DNA of 44,274 nt from a virus. Made by a program: the position numbers and the translations under genes. This document shows, piece after piece, positions 7,466 to 44,274 of the stretch. The notes under the pieces were generated by a model. It searched no databases. It had not been told where the DNA came from and saw nothing but the letters and a program-made list of their open reading frames with translations. The stretch is taken from positions 1 to 44,274 of the IMG/VR virus record IMGVR_UViG_3300037502_002234; one strand, 5' to 3'. How positions within the stretch are numbered: position 1 is the stretch's first letter; every line of letters starts with the position of its first letter.

Positions 7466-7468
7466 CCC

Positions 7469-7497
7469 TTGCTGTTTCCGGTAACGCGTGCCATCAT
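7469..7497 (+). promoter_or_regulatory. Early promoter, copy 2 of a repeated element
   Basis: TTGCTG (7469-7474), 17 bases, CATCAT (7492-7497). It is almost identical to 2805-2833 including the spacer, and likewise ends 36 bases before an ATG (7533). It should drive the chain of tiny genes that follows. Confidence 0.72.
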
Positions 7498-7532
7498 GTC
7501 CACACATTCAAGCGAAACACCTGGGACGCGCC

Positions 7533-14006: not shown

Positions 14007-14783
14007 ATGCCACAATTCGACGAGCAACACGTAAAACTCTGCGGCGGCATCATCGTTTGGGACGGTGTGACGCAACCCGAAATCGTCCAACAGGGCCAGA
14101 AGGCCGGAAGCCACAAGTGGACACTGAAAGTGGTTTTCCCGCCGCAGTGCCCGGACCTGCCCCTGTTCGACCAGCTGGCGAACAAACAGCTGCAGCAGTC
14201 GAAGTTCCGGGGCCAGCTGCCCGCCGGCGGCCGTATGCCGATCGGCCAGGTACAGCCGGGCGAGTTCGGGGACAACTTCCCGGGCTGGTTGGTGATCAGC
14301 TTCAAGACGACCCTGAAAACGCCGGACGTTTACGACGAGAACGGCGCCCCGATCGACCCGATGCAGTTCGGGCAGGTCATTTACACCGGCCAGAAGGTCG
14401 ATGTGCTGGCCCACTGTTACGACTACGACGCCGCCGGCAACCGTGGGATCGCGGCCGGCCTGGACGCCTTCGCGGTCATTCAGTCCGCCCAGGCTCCGCG
14501 CCTCCAGCTCGGCCAGGGCGTCAACACCGCGTCGGCGTTCGGGGGCGGCGGAAACGGCGCACCCGCGCAAGGCGGACAGCAGCCGGGCTATGGTCAGCCC
14601 CAGGGCCAGCCGCAAGGCGGACAGCAGCCGGGCTATGGTCAGCCCCAGGGCCAGCCGCAAGGCGGACAGCAGCCGGGCTATGGTCAGCCCCAGGGCCAGC
14701 CGCAAGGCGGACACGGCCCCCAGGGTAACGGCTACCCGAACCAGGCGCACAATTTCCTGCCCGGCCAGGGCGGACACCAGTAA
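14007..14783 (+). CDS. DUF2815-type single-stranded DNA-binding protein
   Basis: 258 residues. The N-terminal 170 residues look like an OB-fold SSB of the DUF2815 group: KLCGGIIVWDGV, then SHKWTLKVVFP and a strand-rich core with VYDENGAPID and VIYTGQKVDVLAH. From residue 178 the chain is low-complexity Gly/Gln/Pro/Tyr, with three perfect 15-residue repeats. The tail ends FLPGQGGHQ and lacks the acidic tip by which host SSB recruits partners. It should coat single-stranded DNA during phage replication and recombination. A terminator follows 10 bases after the stop. Confidence 0.85.
   Translation: MPQFDEQHVKLCGGIIVWDGVTQPEIVQQGQKAGSHKWTLKVVFPPQCPDLPLFDQLANKQLQQSKFRGQLPAGGRMPIGQVQPGEFGDNFPGWLVISFKTTLKTPDVYDENGAPIDPMQFGQVIYTGQKVDVLAHCYDYDAAGNRGIAAGLDAFAVIQSAQAPRLQLGQGVNTASAFGGGGNGAPAQGGQQPGYGQPQGQPQGGQQPGYGQPQGQPQGGQQPGYGQPQGQPQGGHGPQGNGYPNQAHNFLPGQGGHQ
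14568..14702 (+). repeat. Three perfect 45-bp tandem repeats in SSB tail
   Basis: Three identical 45-base units (14568-14612, 14613-14657, 14658-14702) are followed by a partial fourth. Each encodes GGQQPGYGQPQGQPQ in register, with no synonymous change, so the array is recent or kept uniform by recombination. Copy number may vary between isolates, and a short-read assembly could have collapsed it. Confidence 0.95.
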
Positions 14784-14827: not shown

Positions 14828-15082
14828 ATGTACTTCTACAAGCAAAAGGGCCGCCAGGTATGCGACATGCGCGGCGACCTGGTTCTGACGCACAACGACG
14901 CGCTGGTGAAAGGCCGAGTGAAATCGGCGGCCCCCGCTGCGGTCCGTAACGCAACCTACGTCGAGAACATACCGGCCATGGGCTGGCGCGGCAAGTTGCA
15001 GGCAACCCGTGTCGCGCTGTCGTTTATCTGGGGGCCTTCCCGGGCGTTAACCAAAGAGACGATAGAGGCGGAAGGGCTATGA
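14828..15082 (+). CDS. Small protein of unknown function before polymerase
   Basis: 84 residues, basic, no membrane segment (MYFYKQKGRQVCDMRGDLVL, later SFIWGPSRALTKETIEAEG). No family known to me. The ribosome site is GGAG, 8 bases upstream. It overlaps the next gene by ATGA. It is the first gene after the terminator and depends on read-through or an unseen promoter. Confidence 0.6.
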   Translation: MYFYKQKGRQVCDMRGDLVLTHNDALVKGRVKSAAPAAVRNATYVENIPAMGWRGKLQATRVALSFIWGPSRALTKETIEAEGL

Positions 15083-15264
15083 AACGCGCCCTGTACTGGC
15101 TGTTTCGGTCCGACCGGTTCAGCAACTTCGACATCATCTTGTTGGTCACGGCTCTTTGGCTTCCGGCGCCAGCCTGGGCCGGCTTGCTGCTGATCGCTGG
15201 CGGCCTGTTTCTTTCCGCCCATGTTGAAGGGTTCGTCAAAGCCTGGAGGAACGACAAACCATGA
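15079..15264 (+). CDS. Small inner-membrane protein
   Basis: 61 residues: a basic N-terminus (MKRALYWLFRSDRF), two closely spaced hydrophobic stretches (IILLVTALWLPAPAWAG and LLLIAGGLFLS) and a short polar tail. This is a hairpin-type membrane protein. It is coupled by ATGA overlaps to both neighbours. Function unknown. It is too small and too far from the lysis genes to be called a holin; a membrane-directed early function such as exclusion is possible. Confidence 0.6.
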   Translation: MKRALYWLFRSDRFSNFDIILLVTALWLPAPAWAGLLLIAGGLFLSAHVEGFVKAWRNDKP

Positions 15265-17648
15265 TACGCCGCCCCCTGTACCACGCCGAATCGGGCAGCC
15301 TGTTTCTGGGCGACCCTGGAGCCTACCACGGCGGCAAAGAGGTCCACCCGATCGACCCGTGCACGCTTCCGGCCGGAACGCGGATCCGCACCACGCTGTA
15401 CCATTCCGAAGTGCTCCCGTCGATGGACTTCGAAACCTACAGCGAGGCGGGGTTCACAATCGACCCGCACACCGGCAAGGTTAAGGGCATGGGGCCCCAG
15501 GGCAAGGGCGGACTGCCGGTGGTCGGTACGCCCGTTTACGCGGAACACCCGTCCACCGAAGTCCTGTCGCTGTGCTACGACCTGAAAGACGGGCGCGGCC
15601 GGCGCCGGTGGTTCCCTGGGTTCCCGGTCCCGCAGGACTTGTACGACCATATCGCGGCCGGCGGCCTGATCGAAGCCTGGAACGTGACGTTCGAGTTCTG
15701 GATCTGGAACATGGTCATGACGCGGAAGCACGGGGCGCCGGTGCTCCCGATCACGCAATGCCGGTGCGCCATGGCGAAGGCCCGGCGGTACAGCGTGCCG
15801 GGCTCTTTGGACAACGCCGCGAAGGTTCTGGGCACGCCGGAGAAGGACAAAGACGGCAAGCGGCTGATCCAAAAGCTGACGCGGCCGCACACGCCGACGA
15901 AGAACCGCCCCGCGCACCGCTGGACGCCCGCCACGGCCTGGGAGGACTTCTGCCGGTTCTACGACTACAACGAGTTCGACGTGGTCGCCGAAGACAACGC
16001 CAGCGCCGTGATCCCGGACCTTCGCCCGGAAGAACTCGACACCTGGTTGATGGACCAGACGATCAACGCCCGGGGCGTGCAAGTGGACGTCGAAACGCTG
16101 GACGCCGCCCTGGACGTGTTGGGCCAGGCCGAATGCAAATACACGCAAGAACTGTCCCGGATCACCGGCGGCGCCGTGGGGTCGGTCGCGGAGACGGAGA
16201 AGATGCGCGAATGGCTCTCGAGTACCCAGGGCCTGCACCTGCCCGACATTCAGGCCGACACGGTCAAAGCGACCCTGAAACGGTCCGACCTGACGACGGC
16301 CGCCCGGGAAGTTCTGGAAATCCGGGCCAGTCTGGCCGCCGCCAACGTCAAGAAGCTGCGGTCGCTCCGCCTCCAAGTATCCAGCGACGGCCGGTTGCGC
16401 GACCAATACAAATACTGCGGCGCCGATCGGACCGGCCGGGCGGCGGCTGGCGGCGTCCAGCTGCAGAACATTACCGCCAAGGGCCCGAAGACGCGCCAAT
16501 GTGAAGACGTGACCTGCGGCAAGATTTACGGCAAGGACGCCGACTCGATCGGCTGCCCCCGCTGCGGGTCCTGGATGTTCCGTGAGCTCAACGACTGGAC
16601 GATCGATGCGGTTGTCCAGGCCATCGAAGACGTCCGCACCGGGAGCCTGGAGTGGGTCGAACGGGTGTGGGGCGCGCCGATCGCGGTACTGTGTGGCATT
16701 CTGCGGGGCCTGTTCATTGCCGCCCCGGGAAAGAAGCTGGTGTGCGTTGACTTCTCCGCCATTGAAGCCGTCGCGGCGGCCTGCCTGGCCCGGTGCCAGT
16801 GGCGGATCGACGTGTTCAGCACGCACGGCAAGATATACGAAGCCAGCGCGGCCAACGCGACCGGCATCCCGTTCGAAACGATCCTGCAGTACAAGAAAGA
16901 CAACGGCGTGCACCACCCGGCCCGGAAGGGCGTGGGCAAGATCCGGGAGTTGGCCGGCGGCTATGGCGGCTGGATCAACGCCTGGAAGAACTTCGGCGCC
17001 GACGACTACTTCGAGAACGACGACGAAATCAAAGCCGACGTGCTGGCCTGGCGCGACGAGTCGCCCGAAATCGTCGAAATGTGGGGCGGCCAGTTCAAGT
17101 GGTGCGGGCCGGGCAAGTGGGACTTTCGGCCGGAGCTCCACGGGCTGGAAGGCTGCGCGATCCTGGCCATTCAGAACCCGGGCCAGCATTACAGCCACCA
17201 CGACATAACCTACGCCGTCGCCGACGATATTCTGTTCTGCCGGCTGCCGTCCGGGCGCATGCTGCACTATCACCGGCCGCGCCTGACGCCCTGCAAGGAC
17301 AAGCTGGGTCGCGGCCCGGCCGTGTCGATCAGTTTCGAAGGGTACAACAGCAACAGCCAGAAGGGCCCGGTCGGCTGGGTCCGCATGGAGACGTTCGGCG
17401 GGCGCCTGTTCGAGAACGTCGTGCAAGCCGTCTCGGCGGATATCCAGTTCGACGCATTGAAGCGGTGCGAACGGGCCGGGTACCCGATCGTTATGCACAC
17501 CCACGACGAGGGCTGTGCGGAGACACCAGACAGCCCGGAATACAACGTGGAGGCCATGGCCGCCATAATGTCCGAACGGCCGTCCTGGGCGTCCTGGTGG
17601 CCCCTGCGGGCCGCTGGGTGGGAACACTACCGATACCAGAAGGATTGA
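15261..17648 (+). CDS. Family A DNA polymerase with 3'-5' exonuclease
   Basis: 795 residues. The exonuclease domain has MDFET (Asp56/Glu58), NVTFEFWIW near 141 and YNEFD near 236. In the polymerase domain, YCGADRTGR (385-393) precedes LQNI. Motif A is VCVDFSAIEA (Asp497; the usual Gln is Ala), motif B RKGVGKIRELAGGYGG (555-570), and motif C HTHDEG with Asp749/Glu750. Between YCGADRTGR and motif A lies an insert with four Cys (414, 419, 432, 435), probably a zinc knuckle. It replicates the phage genome together with the primase-helicase, clamp-like protein and SSB. The usual thumb and palm order is kept, and length is normal for phage enzymes of this type. Confidence 0.93.
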   Translation: MIRRPLYHAESGSLFLGDPGAYHGGKEVHPIDPCTLPAGTRIRTTLYHSEVLPSMDFETYSEAGFTIDPHTGKVKGMGPQGKGGLPVVGTPVYAEHPSTEVLSLCYDLKDGRGRRRWFPGFPVPQDLYDHIAAGGLIEAWNVTFEFWIWNMVMTRKHGAPVLPITQCRCAMAKARRYSVPGSLDNAAKVLGTPEKDKDGKRLIQKLTRPHTPTKNRPAHRWTPATAWEDFCRFYDYNEFDVVAEDNASAVIPDLRPEELDTWLMDQTINARGVQVDVETLDAALDVLGQAECKYTQELSRITGGAVGSVAETEKMREWLSSTQGLHLPDIQADTVKATLKRSDLTTAAREVLEIRASLAAANVKKLRSLRLQVSSDGRLRDQYKYCGADRTGRAAAGGVQLQNITAKGPKTRQCEDVTCGKIYGKDADSIGCPRCGSWMFRELNDWTIDAVVQAIEDVRTGSLEWVERVWGAPIAVLCGILRGLFIAAPGKKLVCVDFSAIEAVAAACLARCQWRIDVFSTHGKIYEASAANATGIPFETILQYKKDNGVHHPARKGVGKIRELAGGYGGWINAWKNFGADDYFENDDEIKADVLAWRDESPEIVEMWGGQFKWCGPGKWDFRPELHGLEGCAILAIQNPGQHYSHHDITYAVADDILFCRLPSGRMLHYHRPRLTPCKDKLGRGPAVSISFEGYNSNSQKGPVGWVRMETFGGRLFENVVQAVSADIQFDALKRCERAGYPIVMHTHDEGCAETPDSPEYNVEAMAAIMSERPSWASWWPLRAAGWEHYRYQKD

Positions 17649-39645: not shown

Positions 39646-41982
39646 TCAGTCAAAATAGGGTTTCTCCTGCTCAATGTAGTCCCAGAACTGCGGCCAGTCA
39701 ATGGTTTCCAGTTCGAAGTGCTGGATGCAGATAGACCACGCGATGATCTCCACGGCCGCGTTCCCGTAGACCAGAAGGTCCCAAAGTTCGTTGCGGGCGT
39801 TGCCCGGTCGGTGCCAGTAGTACGACACGTTGCCGTTCTCGTCTTGCTTCTCTCGGCGAACTTCCGCCGTTAGCTCTTTCAGTTCTTTGTCGCCCAGGTC
39901 GACCGGGGCATTGAAGTGGTACCGCTTTTGCTGGCCGGCGTCTTCGACCCACTCCCGGCGGAGCACGGGCGCCAGGCGGTCTTTGTAGTGATCGACCAAA
40001 ATGCGGTACCCGTACGTTCCCTGCTGGGTCTGGAACTGGGCGAACTCTTTGATGGTCTGGTTTTTGCCGGGCCGCTCCCGGCCCAGGATCGGATAGACGC
40101 CGCCAGCGTACGACGAACAGAACGTGGTCACGGTGTCGTTCGCGTAGCCGGCGTCGATCAGCGTTAGCGCGATGGCGTACTTTTTGCCGTCGTCCGCCGT
40201 GTAGACCGTTTCTTCCAACAGCGCCTGCAGCCGCCCCCAAACTGGCGAACCAATTTCGCTGCAGTCATCTTCGCCGCTTTCCACTTCGAACCGCTGATAG
40301 TCGATCAGGTAGCAACGCGCGTCGCGCGTCCAGCCCATGACGGCCACGGCCAGATTCTTTTTGTGCACGTCCACCTGGCACGTAACGAACAGAATAGGCG
40401 ACCCGGAATACTGCGCGGCGTACTTGTTGGGGATTTCGCCCAGCCGATAGACCGGCCGGCGGTGCGCCGACACGGAAGAAAAGCGGATCCGCGCGCCCTG
40501 GACTTCGAAGGGTTCGCCCAGAATGTTGTTGTAGAACTCCTGAAAGAGCCCGACATCCCGCACGGTTTTGTTGTCTTCGTCCCAGGCTTCCAGCCAGTCC
40601 CGGACCACCGCATCCCACGGGAACATGCCGACCGGCGAATACAATGCCGAAATGTGGTAGCTCCGGTGCTCCGGGTCGCGTCCCGTGGCCGTCGGCTTCC
40701 AGCGCCCGCGCGGGAGCATCCACGCCTTGTCGCTGTTGCGGTGCGGGTGCTGGCAAAACCGGCATACGTAGCGAACCGAACCGGGCTTCAGCGCGCCTTC
40801 GTCGGTCGTGTCCCACATGAGCCCGTAGGGCTTCTCGTCGCTGTTGTTCCGGCCGCCCTGGAATACAAGCACCTGCTCTTCGCCGCAATTCTTGCACGGC
40901 ACGAAGAACTTGCGCTGGTCGCCCCGTAGGTACCCGCGTTGGATCCGGCTTCGGCCGGCGATCAGCGGCGTGCTGATCCGGGCAATTTTGCGCGTCTCAA
41001 AGTAGGCCTTGGTCCGCGCTTCCGCCAGCTTTTGCGGGTCGCCGTCTTTGCCCACCTTATCCGGGAAGGCGTCGACCTCGTCTTCCAGCAATACCTGAAT
41101 GGATATCGACCGCAGCTTGTCCGCGTTGCGCGCACCGAACGGCACTAGGAACCCACCGCCGGCCCACTCGAGTCGGGTCTTTGTCTTGCCCGTTTTTCGC
41201 TTGTTGCTTTCGTCAGACGACCGGATCAAGTGCGACAGGTTCGAGTATTGGAGCATTGGCGTTATGTAGGATTCGACCCGAATTTGCGCCAGTTCGGAAT
41301 CCGCGGTCAACAGCATGACCGGGGCCGACTTCACATGGTCGATCAGGTAGCCGATAGCGTTCTCCAGGACGCCGACGGTCGCGCCGATCTGCGCGCCCTT
41401 CATAACGTCCAGTTCCCGGACGTACGAATCGACCGCCAGGCAGTCCGCTATCTCTTTCAGGAACGGGGCCACGTCGTACGAATAGAAGCCCGGCATGCTG
41501 GTCACGGACGGCGGCAGGTATCGCTTGGTTTCGGCCCATTCCGACGGCTTGATAGACAACTTCTCGTCGGTCAACTTCATGACCTGGGCCGCCAGCCATG
41601 CGTCATCGTCGTTGGGTATTTCGTGGTTCTCTTCGGTGATCGCGGCCCGCTGTTTGAAGTTCAGGCGGAGCGGTTCGCCAGCGGAAACGGTCTGCAGAAT
41701 GAATATGATCGACACCAGACCGGCCAGCGTCAGGGTGCGGGCCTGGGTCTGAATCAGCCGGGTCAGGGTGCCGACGTCGCGGCGGCGGTGCTCTTCGAAG
41801 TCGGAGCGGATCGCGTCCAGGGCGTTTTCTTGCTCCAGGTACCGGATCAGGGCGCGGTGGTCCTTGGCCTTGATCTTCGACAACAGGAACATGACCGCCG
41901 CCTGGGTTTCCGAGTCCGACTCTTTCGATAGTGCGGCCACTTCGTCGCCTGTCTTGCTTAACAGGTCACGAAGAACAGTCAT
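39646..41982 (-). CDS. terL: Large terminase (gpA family) with N-terminal extension
   Basis: 778 residues; lambda gpA has 641. From about residue 148 (EWAETKRYLPP) the chain follows gpA. The A-site is the deviant MKGAQIGATVG (194-204), with Lys195 in place of lambda Lys76, and the B-site is VLLEDEVD (297-304). Cys pairs at 363/366 (CKNC) and 407/410 (CRFC) form a zinc site. The nuclease half begins at QVDVHKKNLAVAVMGW with DAGYAND later. Residues 1-147 have no lambda counterpart and include a hydrophobic stretch at about 84-99 (TLTLAGLVSIIFILQT). It packages DNA and cuts cos. Overlaps the methyltransferase gene by 17 bases. Confidence 0.92.
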   Translation of the reverse strand: MTVLRDLLSKTGDEVAALSKESDSETQAAVMFLLSKIKAKDHRALIRYLEQENALDAIRSDFEEHRRRDVGTLTRLIQTQARTLTLAGLVSIIFILQTVSAGEPLRLNFKQRAAITEENHEIPNDDDAWLAAQVMKLTDEKLSIKPSEWAETKRYLPPSVTSMPGFYSYDVAPFLKEIADCLAVDSYVRELDVMKGAQIGATVGVLENAIGYLIDHVKSAPVMLLTADSELAQIRVESYITPMLQYSNLSHLIRSSDESNKRKTGKTKTRLEWAGGGFLVPFGARNADKLRSISIQVLLEDEVDAFPDKVGKDGDPQKLAEARTKAYFETRKIARISTPLIAGRSRIQRGYLRGDQRKFFVPCKNCGEEQVLVFQGGRNNSDEKPYGLMWDTTDEGALKPGSVRYVCRFCQHPHRNSDKAWMLPRGRWKPTATGRDPEHRSYHISALYSPVGMFPWDAVVRDWLEAWDEDNKTVRDVGLFQEFYNNILGEPFEVQGARIRFSSVSAHRRPVYRLGEIPNKYAAQYSGSPILFVTCQVDVHKKNLAVAVMGWTRDARCYLIDYQRFEVESGEDDCSEIGSPVWGRLQALLEETVYTADDGKKYAIALTLIDAGYANDTVTTFCSSYAGGVYPILGRERPGKNQTIKEFAQFQTQQGTYGYRILVDHYKDRLAPVLRREWVEDAGQQKRYHFNAPVDLGDKELKELTAEVRREKQDENGNVSYYWHRPGNARNELWDLLVYGNAAVEIIAWSICIQHFELETIDWPQFWDYIEQEKPYFD

Positions 41983-43492
41983 CGAATAGGCGCCCTGTCT
42001 CTGCGTGTACGGCTTTCTTGCCGGTGTAATCCTGCCAACGGCGAACCGTTACGTCGACGTAGGCCGGTGTGATCTCCATAGTGTAGCAACGCCGGCCGGT
42101 GAGCTCCGCGCCCATGAGCGTCGAACCGGACCCGCAGAACGGCTCCAGGCAAAGCCCGCCGCGCGGAAGACTGGATCGCATGACGCGCTGCATCATCTCC
42201 ACCGGCTTCGGTGTTGCGTGTCCGTGCCTTTCGTGACCTGTCACGCGCGGGAACTCCCACACGTCCCGCATGGCTTCGTGCGCGTTATCGAAATAGGCCC
42301 GCATGCCCCCCTGGATTCCGTTAACGTGGTTCCGGTACCCGCCTTTCAACCGCTCATAGACCGACCGCAGTTCGGCGTAGGGTTTCTCGAAGTGCCCGGG
42401 CAACGCGTCCGCCAGCATGCCGTAGTACTTCTCGTTGATCATCGACCACTGCGACTTGCTGAACCAGTGCGCGAACATCTGCACCCCGGTAACCTCCCGG
42501 CACTTGCTGGCGGTGAGCCCGGCGGCCTGGGCTTCGGCCTCCAGGTACAGCCGGATTTCGTCCCAACCATCCCAATACTGGTCGCTGTTTACGTTGCCCA
42601 GGAACTGCGGACCGAACTGGAAGAACAAACACCGCTCGGTTGCTTCCGGGTACTGCGTCACCAGGTCCGACTTCATGCCGGGTATGCTCTTTTTGTCCCA
42701 CACGATTTCGTTGCGGAACGCGAACTCTTCGGACGACTCCAGGCCGGCCGCGTACCAAAGGCGCCATAGGTCGGGCGCGTTGCCCCAGATATACGCGCTG
42801 CCGTTGTCGGTCAGGAAAGTCCGCCAGGCGCCCCACCACTCCAGCTGGAACTCGTCCAGTTTCTCTTTGTACAGGTTGTCGTTCTGGACCCCGTCTTTTT
42901 GCTTGCCCATGCCGCAGGGCGGATCCGCGTGCAACAGGGCGGCTCGCTCGTCACCGACTAGGCGGGCGACGGCGTCAATACTGGTAGAGTCGCCGCACAT
43001 GACGCGGTGGCCGTCCAGCAACCAGATATCGCCCTCAACCGTGACGGGGTCGGCGGCCTCTTCGGCGGGCGGCGGTGGCGGGGTCGGCGGCAACGCGTCC
43101 GCCAGCAATTCATCCAGGAACGACGGATCGAAGCCCAGAACGTCGATATCGAAATCAAGATCCTGCAGGGCTTCGACTTCCGCTTTTAGCGCGCCCAGGT
43201 TCCATCCGGCGTTCAGCGGCAACTGGTTGTCGGCGATCAGGTACCCGCGTTTCTGTGCGTCGGTGAGCCCGGCCAAAACGACGCACGGCCCGTATTCTTT
43301 GCCCAGCTGTAGCCCGGCCATTTTCCGGCCGTGGCCCGCTATGATTTCGTCGTGCTCGTCGATCAGGATCGGGTTCGTCCATCCGAACTCCCGCATGCTG
43401 GCGGCGATCTGGTCCACCTGCTGGACGGAGTGCGTCCGGCTGTTGTGCTTTGCGTCTTTCAGGTCGGCGAGGCGCCGTTGCTCAATCTGCAT
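41966..43492 (-). CDS. ParB-like domain fused to DNA methyltransferase
   Basis: 508 residues. Residues 1-90 are a ParB/sulfiredoxin-type nuclease-like domain (LKDAKHNSRTHSVQQVDQIAA, IIAGHGRKMAG), then an acidic Pro-rich linker (134-150). The catalytic part is a beta-class N4/N6 amino methyltransferase: motif IV is DPPC (190-193) instead of the usual DPPY, and motif I EPFCGSGST (450-458) comes later. Between them is an insert of over 200 residues holding GVQMFAHWFSKSQWSM. It probably modifies phage DNA to escape host restriction. Placed between the two terminase genes, it may act during packaging. The gene overlaps TerS by 11 bases. Confidence 0.9.
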   Translation of the reverse strand: MQIEQRRLADLKDAKHNSRTHSVQQVDQIAASMREFGWTNPILIDEHDEIIAGHGRKMAGLQLGKEYGPCVVLAGLTDAQKRGYLIADNQLPLNAGWNLGALKAEVEALQDLDFDIDVLGFDPSFLDELLADALPPTPPPPPAEEAADPVTVEGDIWLLDGHRVMCGDSTSIDAVARLVGDERAALLHADPPCGMGKQKDGVQNDNLYKEKLDEFQLEWWGAWRTFLTDNGSAYIWGNAPDLWRLWYAAGLESSEEFAFRNEIVWDKKSIPGMKSDLVTQYPEATERCLFFQFGPQFLGNVNSDQYWDGWDEIRLYLEAEAQAAGLTASKCREVTGVQMFAHWFSKSQWSMINEKYYGMLADALPGHFEKPYAELRSVYERLKGGYRNHVNGIQGGMRAYFDNAHEAMRDVWEFPRVTGHERHGHATPKPVEMMQRVMRSSLPRGGLCLEPFCGSGSTLMGAELTGRRCYTMEITPAYVDVTVRRWQDYTGKKAVHAETGRLFDDCSS

Positions 43493-44171
43493 CGTTCAGG
43501 AACTCCAGGCGCGCCGCGCTTTGTTTCATGTTTTTCAGGACCCGGCTGTTGGCGTCCCGAATAAGGGCCGTAACGTCGGCCGTCGTTTCGGGGCCGCCCG
43601 CTTCGCACCGGGCCACCACCATTTTGCTGACCGACTCCGGCACGTCCGACACCAGGCGGGCGAAGGCAACGTCGATCAGCGGGAACACCAGCCCGGCCAC
43701 TTTCTCCCGTTCGATCAGGTCGCCCCGTTGCTGGCGGACGCGAAGTTCCCGGTGCTTGTACTCCGCAATGTTCTTCAGCGAATCCACGAACCGCTTGAAC
43801 CCGTCCACGCTCCCGAACTTCATGACCACTTCGCGCACCGTCATGTTCTCCAGGTCCCGGAGCTCATACGGCACTTCGTTGCTGGTCGTCGTCGGTGCGG
43901 CGGCCGGCGGATCGGGCGGGCGGGCCGGCGTCGTCTTGTCCCGGGCCATCGCTTTCTGCCGTTTCTTCGGTACCGGCTTTACGGGGTCGGGTTCGGCGGG
44001 GAGCTCCTGGACGTCGTGAGCGCGTAGCCACTCCCGAACCAGCGGGTGCGACACGTCCACGCCCTTACTGTCCGACGCGTCGTACAGCGGGCCCTTGCAT
44101 GCTTTGGTCACGGCGGCCCGGGAGACTCCGGCCCAGCGCGCCAGCTCGGCTTTGGTGATGATTCTGCTCAT
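43482..44171 (-). CDS. terS: Small terminase subunit (Nu1-like)
   Basis: 229 residues. An N-terminal winged helix-turn-helix (ITKAELARWAGVSRAAVTKA, then SHPLVREWLRAHD) would bind cos; next come a Pro/Lys-rich linker and a helical region (EVVMKFGSVDGFKRFVDSL, KHRELRVRQQRGDLIER) for oligomerisation and for contact with the large subunit. Layout is that of Nu1, though longer. I place the start at the ATG at 44171; a TTG at 44207 extends it by 12 residues into the candidate cos region. Neither has a clear ribosome site. Confidence 0.82.
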   Translation of the reverse strand: MSRIITKAELARWAGVSRAAVTKACKGPLYDASDSKGVDVSHPLVREWLRAHDVQELPAEPDPVKPVPKKRQKAMARDKTTPARPPDPPAAAPTTTSNEVPYELRDLENMTVREVVMKFGSVDGFKRFVDSLKNIAEYKHRELRVRQQRGDLIEREKVAGLVFPLIDVAFARLVSDVPESVSKMVVARCEAGGPETTADVTALIRDANSRVLKNMKQSAARLEFLNDAD

Positions 44172-44274
44172 AGTTAACAGATTAATGCCGGAAGGGCCCG
44201 AAGGCAATGGCCCGGGGCGTTAACCGCCCCAATTTGTCAACCATTGCGAGAGAGCTGCGCGGCTGAATCAAAAC
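44172..44274. other. Candidate cos region upstream of small terminase
   Basis: This stretch (with bases 1-48 at the other end) lies between the HNH-like gene and TerS and holds no gene. It contains nested dyads: CAATGG (44205-44210) with CCATTG (44241-44246), enclosing GGGGCG-TTAAC-CGCCCC (about 44215-44230). The terminal 15-base repeat follows. Nested inverted repeats beside a repeat end fit a terminase binding and cutting site. The cut position is not seen directly. Confidence 0.5.
44260..44274. repeat. Right copy of 15-bp terminal direct repeat
   Basis: Identical to bases 1-15. If the repeat is a filled-in 5' overhang, the phage has 15-base cohesive ends; if an assembly overlap, the genome is a circular map of about 44,259 bp. 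The position just upstream of the small terminase makes the first reading attractive. Confidence 0.9.

Follow-up and report, generated by a model that had tools for sequence, protein, structure and literature searches.

Gene organization at the packaging locus

The window, which is the whole stretch of 44,274 nucleotides analysed here (IMG/VR record IMGVR_UViG_3300037502_002234, positions 1 to 44,274), contains a minus-strand methyltransferase (MTase) gene between a small terminase subunit (TerS)-like gene and a gene for the large terminase subunit (TerL) (Table 1). The open reading frame and both flanking terminase genes of the original prediction are confirmed, and the frame is intact. The start of the MTase gene overlaps the TerS-like gene by 11 nt and its end overlaps TerL by 17 nt, so that the gene is situated in the TerS–TerL slot, as in 936-type phages.

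Table 1. Features of the terminase–methyltransferase region and of the encoded methyltransferase
Feature	Coordinates	Strand	Evidence
ParB-like + N6_N4 DNA methyltransferase fusion, 508 aa, ATG start	41966..43492	-	PF01555, phrog_498
Terminase small subunit-like gene, HTH N-terminus	43482..44207	-	phrog_57 E=2.5e-6; phrog_13700 E=1.7e-12
Terminase large subunit, lambda gpA type	39646..41982	-	GpA_ATPase 7e-52, GpA_nuclease 2.8e-42, phrog_15 6.9e-168
ParB-CTPase-like N-terminal domain, residues 1-130	43103..43492	-	PHROG, Foldseek
Motif IV DPPC, residues 190-193; codon 193 (42914-42916) TGC vs TAC in close homologues	42914..42925	-	sequence comparison
Target-recognition region (approximately residues 269-405), flanked by motifs IV-VIII and X/I	42278..42688	-	alignment, AF2
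HWFSKSQW block, residues 342-349, family-conserved	42446..42469	-	alignment
Motif I EPFCGSG, residues 450-456, SAM-binding FxGxG	42125..42145	-	alignment

In the TerS-like protein, the HTH N-terminus resembles phrog_57 and the C-terminal part resembles phrog_13700, which is labelled FtsK/SpoIIIE-like. The TerL possesses an N-terminal extension of approximately 120–135 residues preceding the terminase homology (41575–41982, minus strand), including the hydrophobic stretch TLTLAGLVSIIFILQTVS; the TerLs of L014, L057, and L111 are similar in length to that of the window. Elsewhere in the window, a 45-bp unit is present in three perfect tandem copies (14566–14713) near the 3' end of the ssDNA-binding/annealing gene (14007–14783). 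A 63-bp direct repeat starting CTTGCTGTTTCCGGTAACGC (2804–2866 and 7468–7530, 81% identical) is located near gene boundaries and possibly represents a shared promoter or leader. In addition, an 867-aa frame (15024–17627, minus strand) lies antisense to the DNA polymerase gene (15261–17648, plus strand), matches no PHROG, and is probably a shadow ORF.

Domain architecture and predicted structure

PF01555 spans residues 186–482 of the MTase (E=4.7e-28, 99.1 bits against a cut-off of 26.7), and phrog_498 covers residues 1–505, effectively the full length (E=4.6e-103). By homology and domain order, the protein belongs to the PHROG 498 family of ParB-N6_N4 methyltransferases, and PF01555 was detected in all 99 aligned members and PF02195 in 59 of them. 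The order of motif IV, target-recognition region (TRD), and motif I, together with the FxGxG form of motif I, is that of the beta-class exocyclic amino DNA methyltransferases. Within the FCGSG stretch at residues 452–456, G454 is invariant (99/99) and F452 nearly so (98/99).

The AlphaFold2 model built from the 99-sequence alignment has a mean pLDDT of 89.1 and a pTM of 0.65. In Foldseek searches with this model, the best PDB matches of the MTase part are CcrM (6pbd, 1.7e-13) and M.BceJIV (9c3u/8urk, approximately 2e-13), followed by MboIIA and RsrI. The predicted N-terminal domain matches the CTPase folds of ParB (7bnr_A, 1.3e-6; 7bm8_A, 1.8e-6) and Noc (7ng0, 2.3e-6). Several ParB PHROGs likewise cover residues ~1–140 (phrog_620, E=4e-51; phrog_15396, E=6e-44), which bears out the earlier proposal of a ParB-like N-terminal domain. 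Two well-conserved residues of this domain, G53 (99/99) and R56 (82/99), lie within a Box II-like G-H-x-R stretch (G-H-G-R in the window). Nucleotide binding requires the conserved Box II Arg in the proteins assayed in a 2025 survey (PMC12704722), and R56 is a candidate for this residue. According to the same survey, fusions of N6_N4 methyltransferases with the ParB-CTPase fold are commoner in phages and are enriched in prophage regions. Taken together, sequence and model are best read as those of an orphan N6-adenine-type MTase that combines a CcrM/M.BceJIV-like fold with a ParB-CTPase fold. Normal members of the family, carrying DPPY at motif IV, would recognize a site through the TRD and methylate it at adenine N6 or possibly at cytosine N4.

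A 200-residue insert had been proposed within the catalytic region. Since motif I is located C-terminal to motif IV, which is the beta-class order, the stretch between them is the TRD and no insertion exists; it can be aligned in 99 homologues and falls inside the PF01555 match. The TRD region is less conserved, with a mean majority-residue frequency of 0.57 over the 99 homologues; the MTase parts on either side reach 0.74 and 0.72. The HWF.KSQW block is indeed present as described, but it is conserved family-wide (H342 95/97, W343 81/97, S347 91/95, and Q348 93/95) and hence does not mark a special insert.

Motif IV and its rarity

Motif IV lies in the context LHADPPCGMGK (residues 187–197), and the cysteine noticed earlier in place of the aromatic residue is confirmed at position 193. 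With this residue, the protein departs from the (D/N/S)PP(Y/F/W) form of a competent amino methyltransferase; it is therefore classed as a homologue by descent and not as a proven active enzyme. Residue 193 is Tyr in 95 of 99 aligned sequences, Trp in two, and Cys in two, and all close IMG/VR relatives that cover motif IV (44–89% identity) have DPPY. Across the full IMG/VR, ADPPCGMGK occurs in only one contig besides the window, namely L039, compared with at least 120 matches to the DPPY form. The homologue survey, which was extended to loci found through another motif (YIWGNAP), counted 127 DPPY and 2 DPPC, and both DPPC members (the window and L039) had entered the set for other reasons. Scans of the ADPPxGMGK position covered the His, Asn, Asp, Cys, Trp, Phe, and Leu codons; the Cys scan returned L039 alone and the other six returned nothing. 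A looser HADPPCG scan of viral contigs yielded 17 further loci, none of which was seen as a methyltransferase; those translated were short or unrelated frames without methyltransferase context.

The L039 protein shares 49% identity with its counterpart in the window and has L152 (79% identity) as nearest relative; since L152 carries DPPY, the two cysteines arose separately. Against near-universal DPPY, two separate cases point to a sporadic substitution, not a subfamily trait; a subfamily signature is ruled out. This check of motif IV in homologues, which had been proposed with the original prediction, speaks against a special chemistry of DPPC.

State of the gene

The cysteine results from a single A-to-G transition (TAC in L012, L014, and L015; TGC in the window), by which a frame or alignment error is ruled out. 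Between the window and its nearest relative, L012 (89% identity), 56 nonsynonymous and 132 synonymous differences give a dN/dS of 0.09, which shows that the gene is otherwise under purifying selection. Of the 17 window-specific residues, only Y193C affects a near-invariant site, and no compensating new aromatic residue is found among them. Furthermore, Y193C is the sole departure of the window protein from the columns conserved in at least 95% of 105 full-length members, and the same holds for the cysteine of L039. The intact frame, the low dN/dS, and the lack of any other near-invariant loss rule out a decaying pseudogene. This is what a recent loss at one site, or a miscalled base, would look like in a gene that is functional in all other respects.

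Expected effect of the substitution

The most probable reading, at roughly two in three, is that the protein is an orphan amino-methyltransferase by descent, in which a recent Tyr193-to-Cys change has likely impaired catalysis. The family is a large group of orphan phage enzymes, amino-methyltransferases of the beta class that begin with a ParB-CTPase-type domain and are encoded beside the terminase genes; its DPPY members most likely shield phage DNA from host nucleases. An anti-restrictive role is also probable for the window protein itself. In the window genome, a recent A-to-G transition, presumably a true base call, would have replaced the catalytic Tyr193, leaving an enzyme that likely still binds SAM and DNA and whose methyl transfer is probably weak or absent.

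The aromatic residue of motif IV stacks on the flipped base (PMC3874165), and a cysteine incapable of aromatic stacking on the flipped-out base is expected to allow poor or no methylation. In HP0593, Y107G is inactive, and the activity of M.TaqI Y108A/G is reduced (PMC3036652); the APPA form served to abolish catalysis in M.BceJIII and M.EcoGIX (PMC7736820). The first residue of the motif, D190, is kept in the window protein, and its equivalent D29 in M1.HpyAVI contacts SAM (PMC5173035). Because no assayed or published Tyr-to-Cys mutant of motif IV was found in the literature searched, we infer the effect of Cys193: this copy of the enzyme is most likely weakened or inactive. Since M.TaqI Y108A/G are not fully inactive, the effect of DPPC may be no more than hypomorphic.

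Placement beside TerL and a possible link to packaging

A different proposal, concerning the role of the family and compatible with the impaired-enzyme reading, is that these proteins are linked to packaging, either by methylating or marking pac/cos or by aiding TerS loading, with a binding function that would survive without catalysis. TerL follows the gene at a short distance downstream in at least 100 of the 118 family loci (for example L012, L039, L087, L099, and L122), across unrelated TerL families. In 92 of the 118, the TerL found at most 3.5 kb downstream belongs to one of three clusters, with a median gap of approximately 400 bp; eight more have TerLs of other kinds, identified from PHROG matches or from homology to a locus with such a TerL; and in about half of the other 18, the contig ends after less than 600 bp. 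The neighboring TerLs fall in PHROGs 2, 9, 15, 38, and 3717. The arrangement extends to named phages (loci L162, L163, and L164), with the order MTase–TerS–TerL in Streptococcus vb_Spy_7, MTase–hypothetical–TerL in Psychrobacter pOW20-A, and MTase–two genes–TerL in Verrucomicrobia P8625, and the order in the close clade of the window itself is TerS–MTase–TerL. Short IMG/VR contigs may have been called viral through TerL, a viral hallmark, which would inflate the adjacency; this bias seems limited because, among contigs of at least 20 kb, TerL is nearby in 18 of about 20 with enough sequence.

Control of packaging by methylation is possible, as cleavage of P1 pac requires Dam methylation (PMC12707154), and the predicted fold of the N-terminal domain is that of a DNA-loading CTPase. 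Nevertheless, gene neighborhood alone can stem from a recombination hotspot, and the TerS–TerL gap of the lactococcal 936 phages is described as an insertion hotspot whose methyltransferases act in anti-restriction (PMC4190342). Methyltransferases between TerS and TerL are thus already known from these phages. Overall, a packaging role is rather unlikely, and the putative coupling raised in the original prediction is better motivated by the family-wide proximity to TerL than by the DPPC motif.

Alternative readings of the cysteine

It is doubtful that the DPPC enzyme still methylates, perhaps more slowly, with a less strict choice of base, or subject to redox control through the cysteine. Two separate Tyr-to-Cys substitutions in otherwise intact genes weakly favor tolerance of the change; simultaneously, D190-P191-P192, which holds the amino group, is kept, and the residual activity of the M.TaqI mutants points in the same direction. 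Against this stand the lack of DPPC in all other homologues examined, the lack of a compensating aromatic residue, and the inactivity of HP0593 Y107G.

It is also quite unlikely that the cysteine comes from a consensus or assembly error, or reflects a minority variant of the sample, and that the phage truly carries DPPY and a normal methyltransferase. A lone A-to-G change in a codon that is TAY in close relatives, within a gene that otherwise looks fully functional, would fit such an error, and no near-identical second copy of the window was found, the nearest being L012 at 89% identity. However, the same change is present in the distant contig L039, and two independent errors at one codon are less likely. 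None of the other scanned substitutions occurs at codon 193, a weak bias given only two events; His would require an equally easy transition, and the preference for Cys over it is not significant.

It is very unlikely that the family marks DNA for packaging with a DNA-binding or loading role separable from methylation, so that catalytic loss, which would have arisen at least twice, is tolerated or selected while an intact protein is retained next to TerL, or that the DPPC enzyme performs a changed, Cys-dependent chemistry. C5-type chemistry suggested by the PPC motif is improbable, as no C5-methyltransferase family matches and Pfam at E≤0.001 gives only PF01555.

Comparison with known systems

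Taken alone, the window gene is of little import, since it amounts to a single rare substitution within an enzyme family that is well known from phages. More useful is that the base-stacking tyrosine of motif IV has changed to cysteine on two separate occasions, a natural experiment. The near-constant placement of ParB-MTase genes by TerL, across unrelated terminase families, makes it possible to test directly whether phage DNA methylation, or ParB-type loading, is tied to packaging.

A cysteine after two prolines at motif IV also exists in CmoX, a phage C5-cytosine carboxymethyltransferase with an SPPC motif, many contigs of which also carry a ParBc protein (PMC12783734); CmoX was the sole result of a literature search on DPPC, NPPC, and SPPC motifs. 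CmoX belongs to a different enzyme class, whereas the window protein aligns to DPPY enzymes and has PF01555 as its only Pfam match.

In the 936 phages, the genes of M.Phi93I, M.Phi145I, and M.Phi93DAM are likewise situated between TerS and TerL, and M.Phi93I and M.Phi145I are of the beta class, like the window protein (PMC4190342). These enzymes are not described as ParB fusions and protect against HphI/DpnII, while the window protein, with a putative protective role, lacks the motif IV aromatic residue. The best structural matches, CcrM (6pbd) and M.BceJIV (8urk, 9c3s, and 9c3u), are beta-class N6-adenine enzymes with the same MTase fold and motif order. Their matched chains have no ParB domain, retain DPPY, and are approximately 20% identical to the window protein.

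The closest counterparts are the phage ParB-N6_N4 fusions (PHROG 498; PF02195 plus PF01555), known from the ParB-CTPase fold survey (PMC12704722) and from met1/met2 of Wolbachia WO (PMC3089641). They share the phage context, the domain order, and full-length homology with the window protein, as well as the position of motif IV, motif I, and the TRD region, within which the close subfamily also has HWF.KSQW. They differ in the aromatic residue of motif IV, which is Cys in the window protein. The window encodes a known kind of phage protein that carries a rare and probably damaging substitution.
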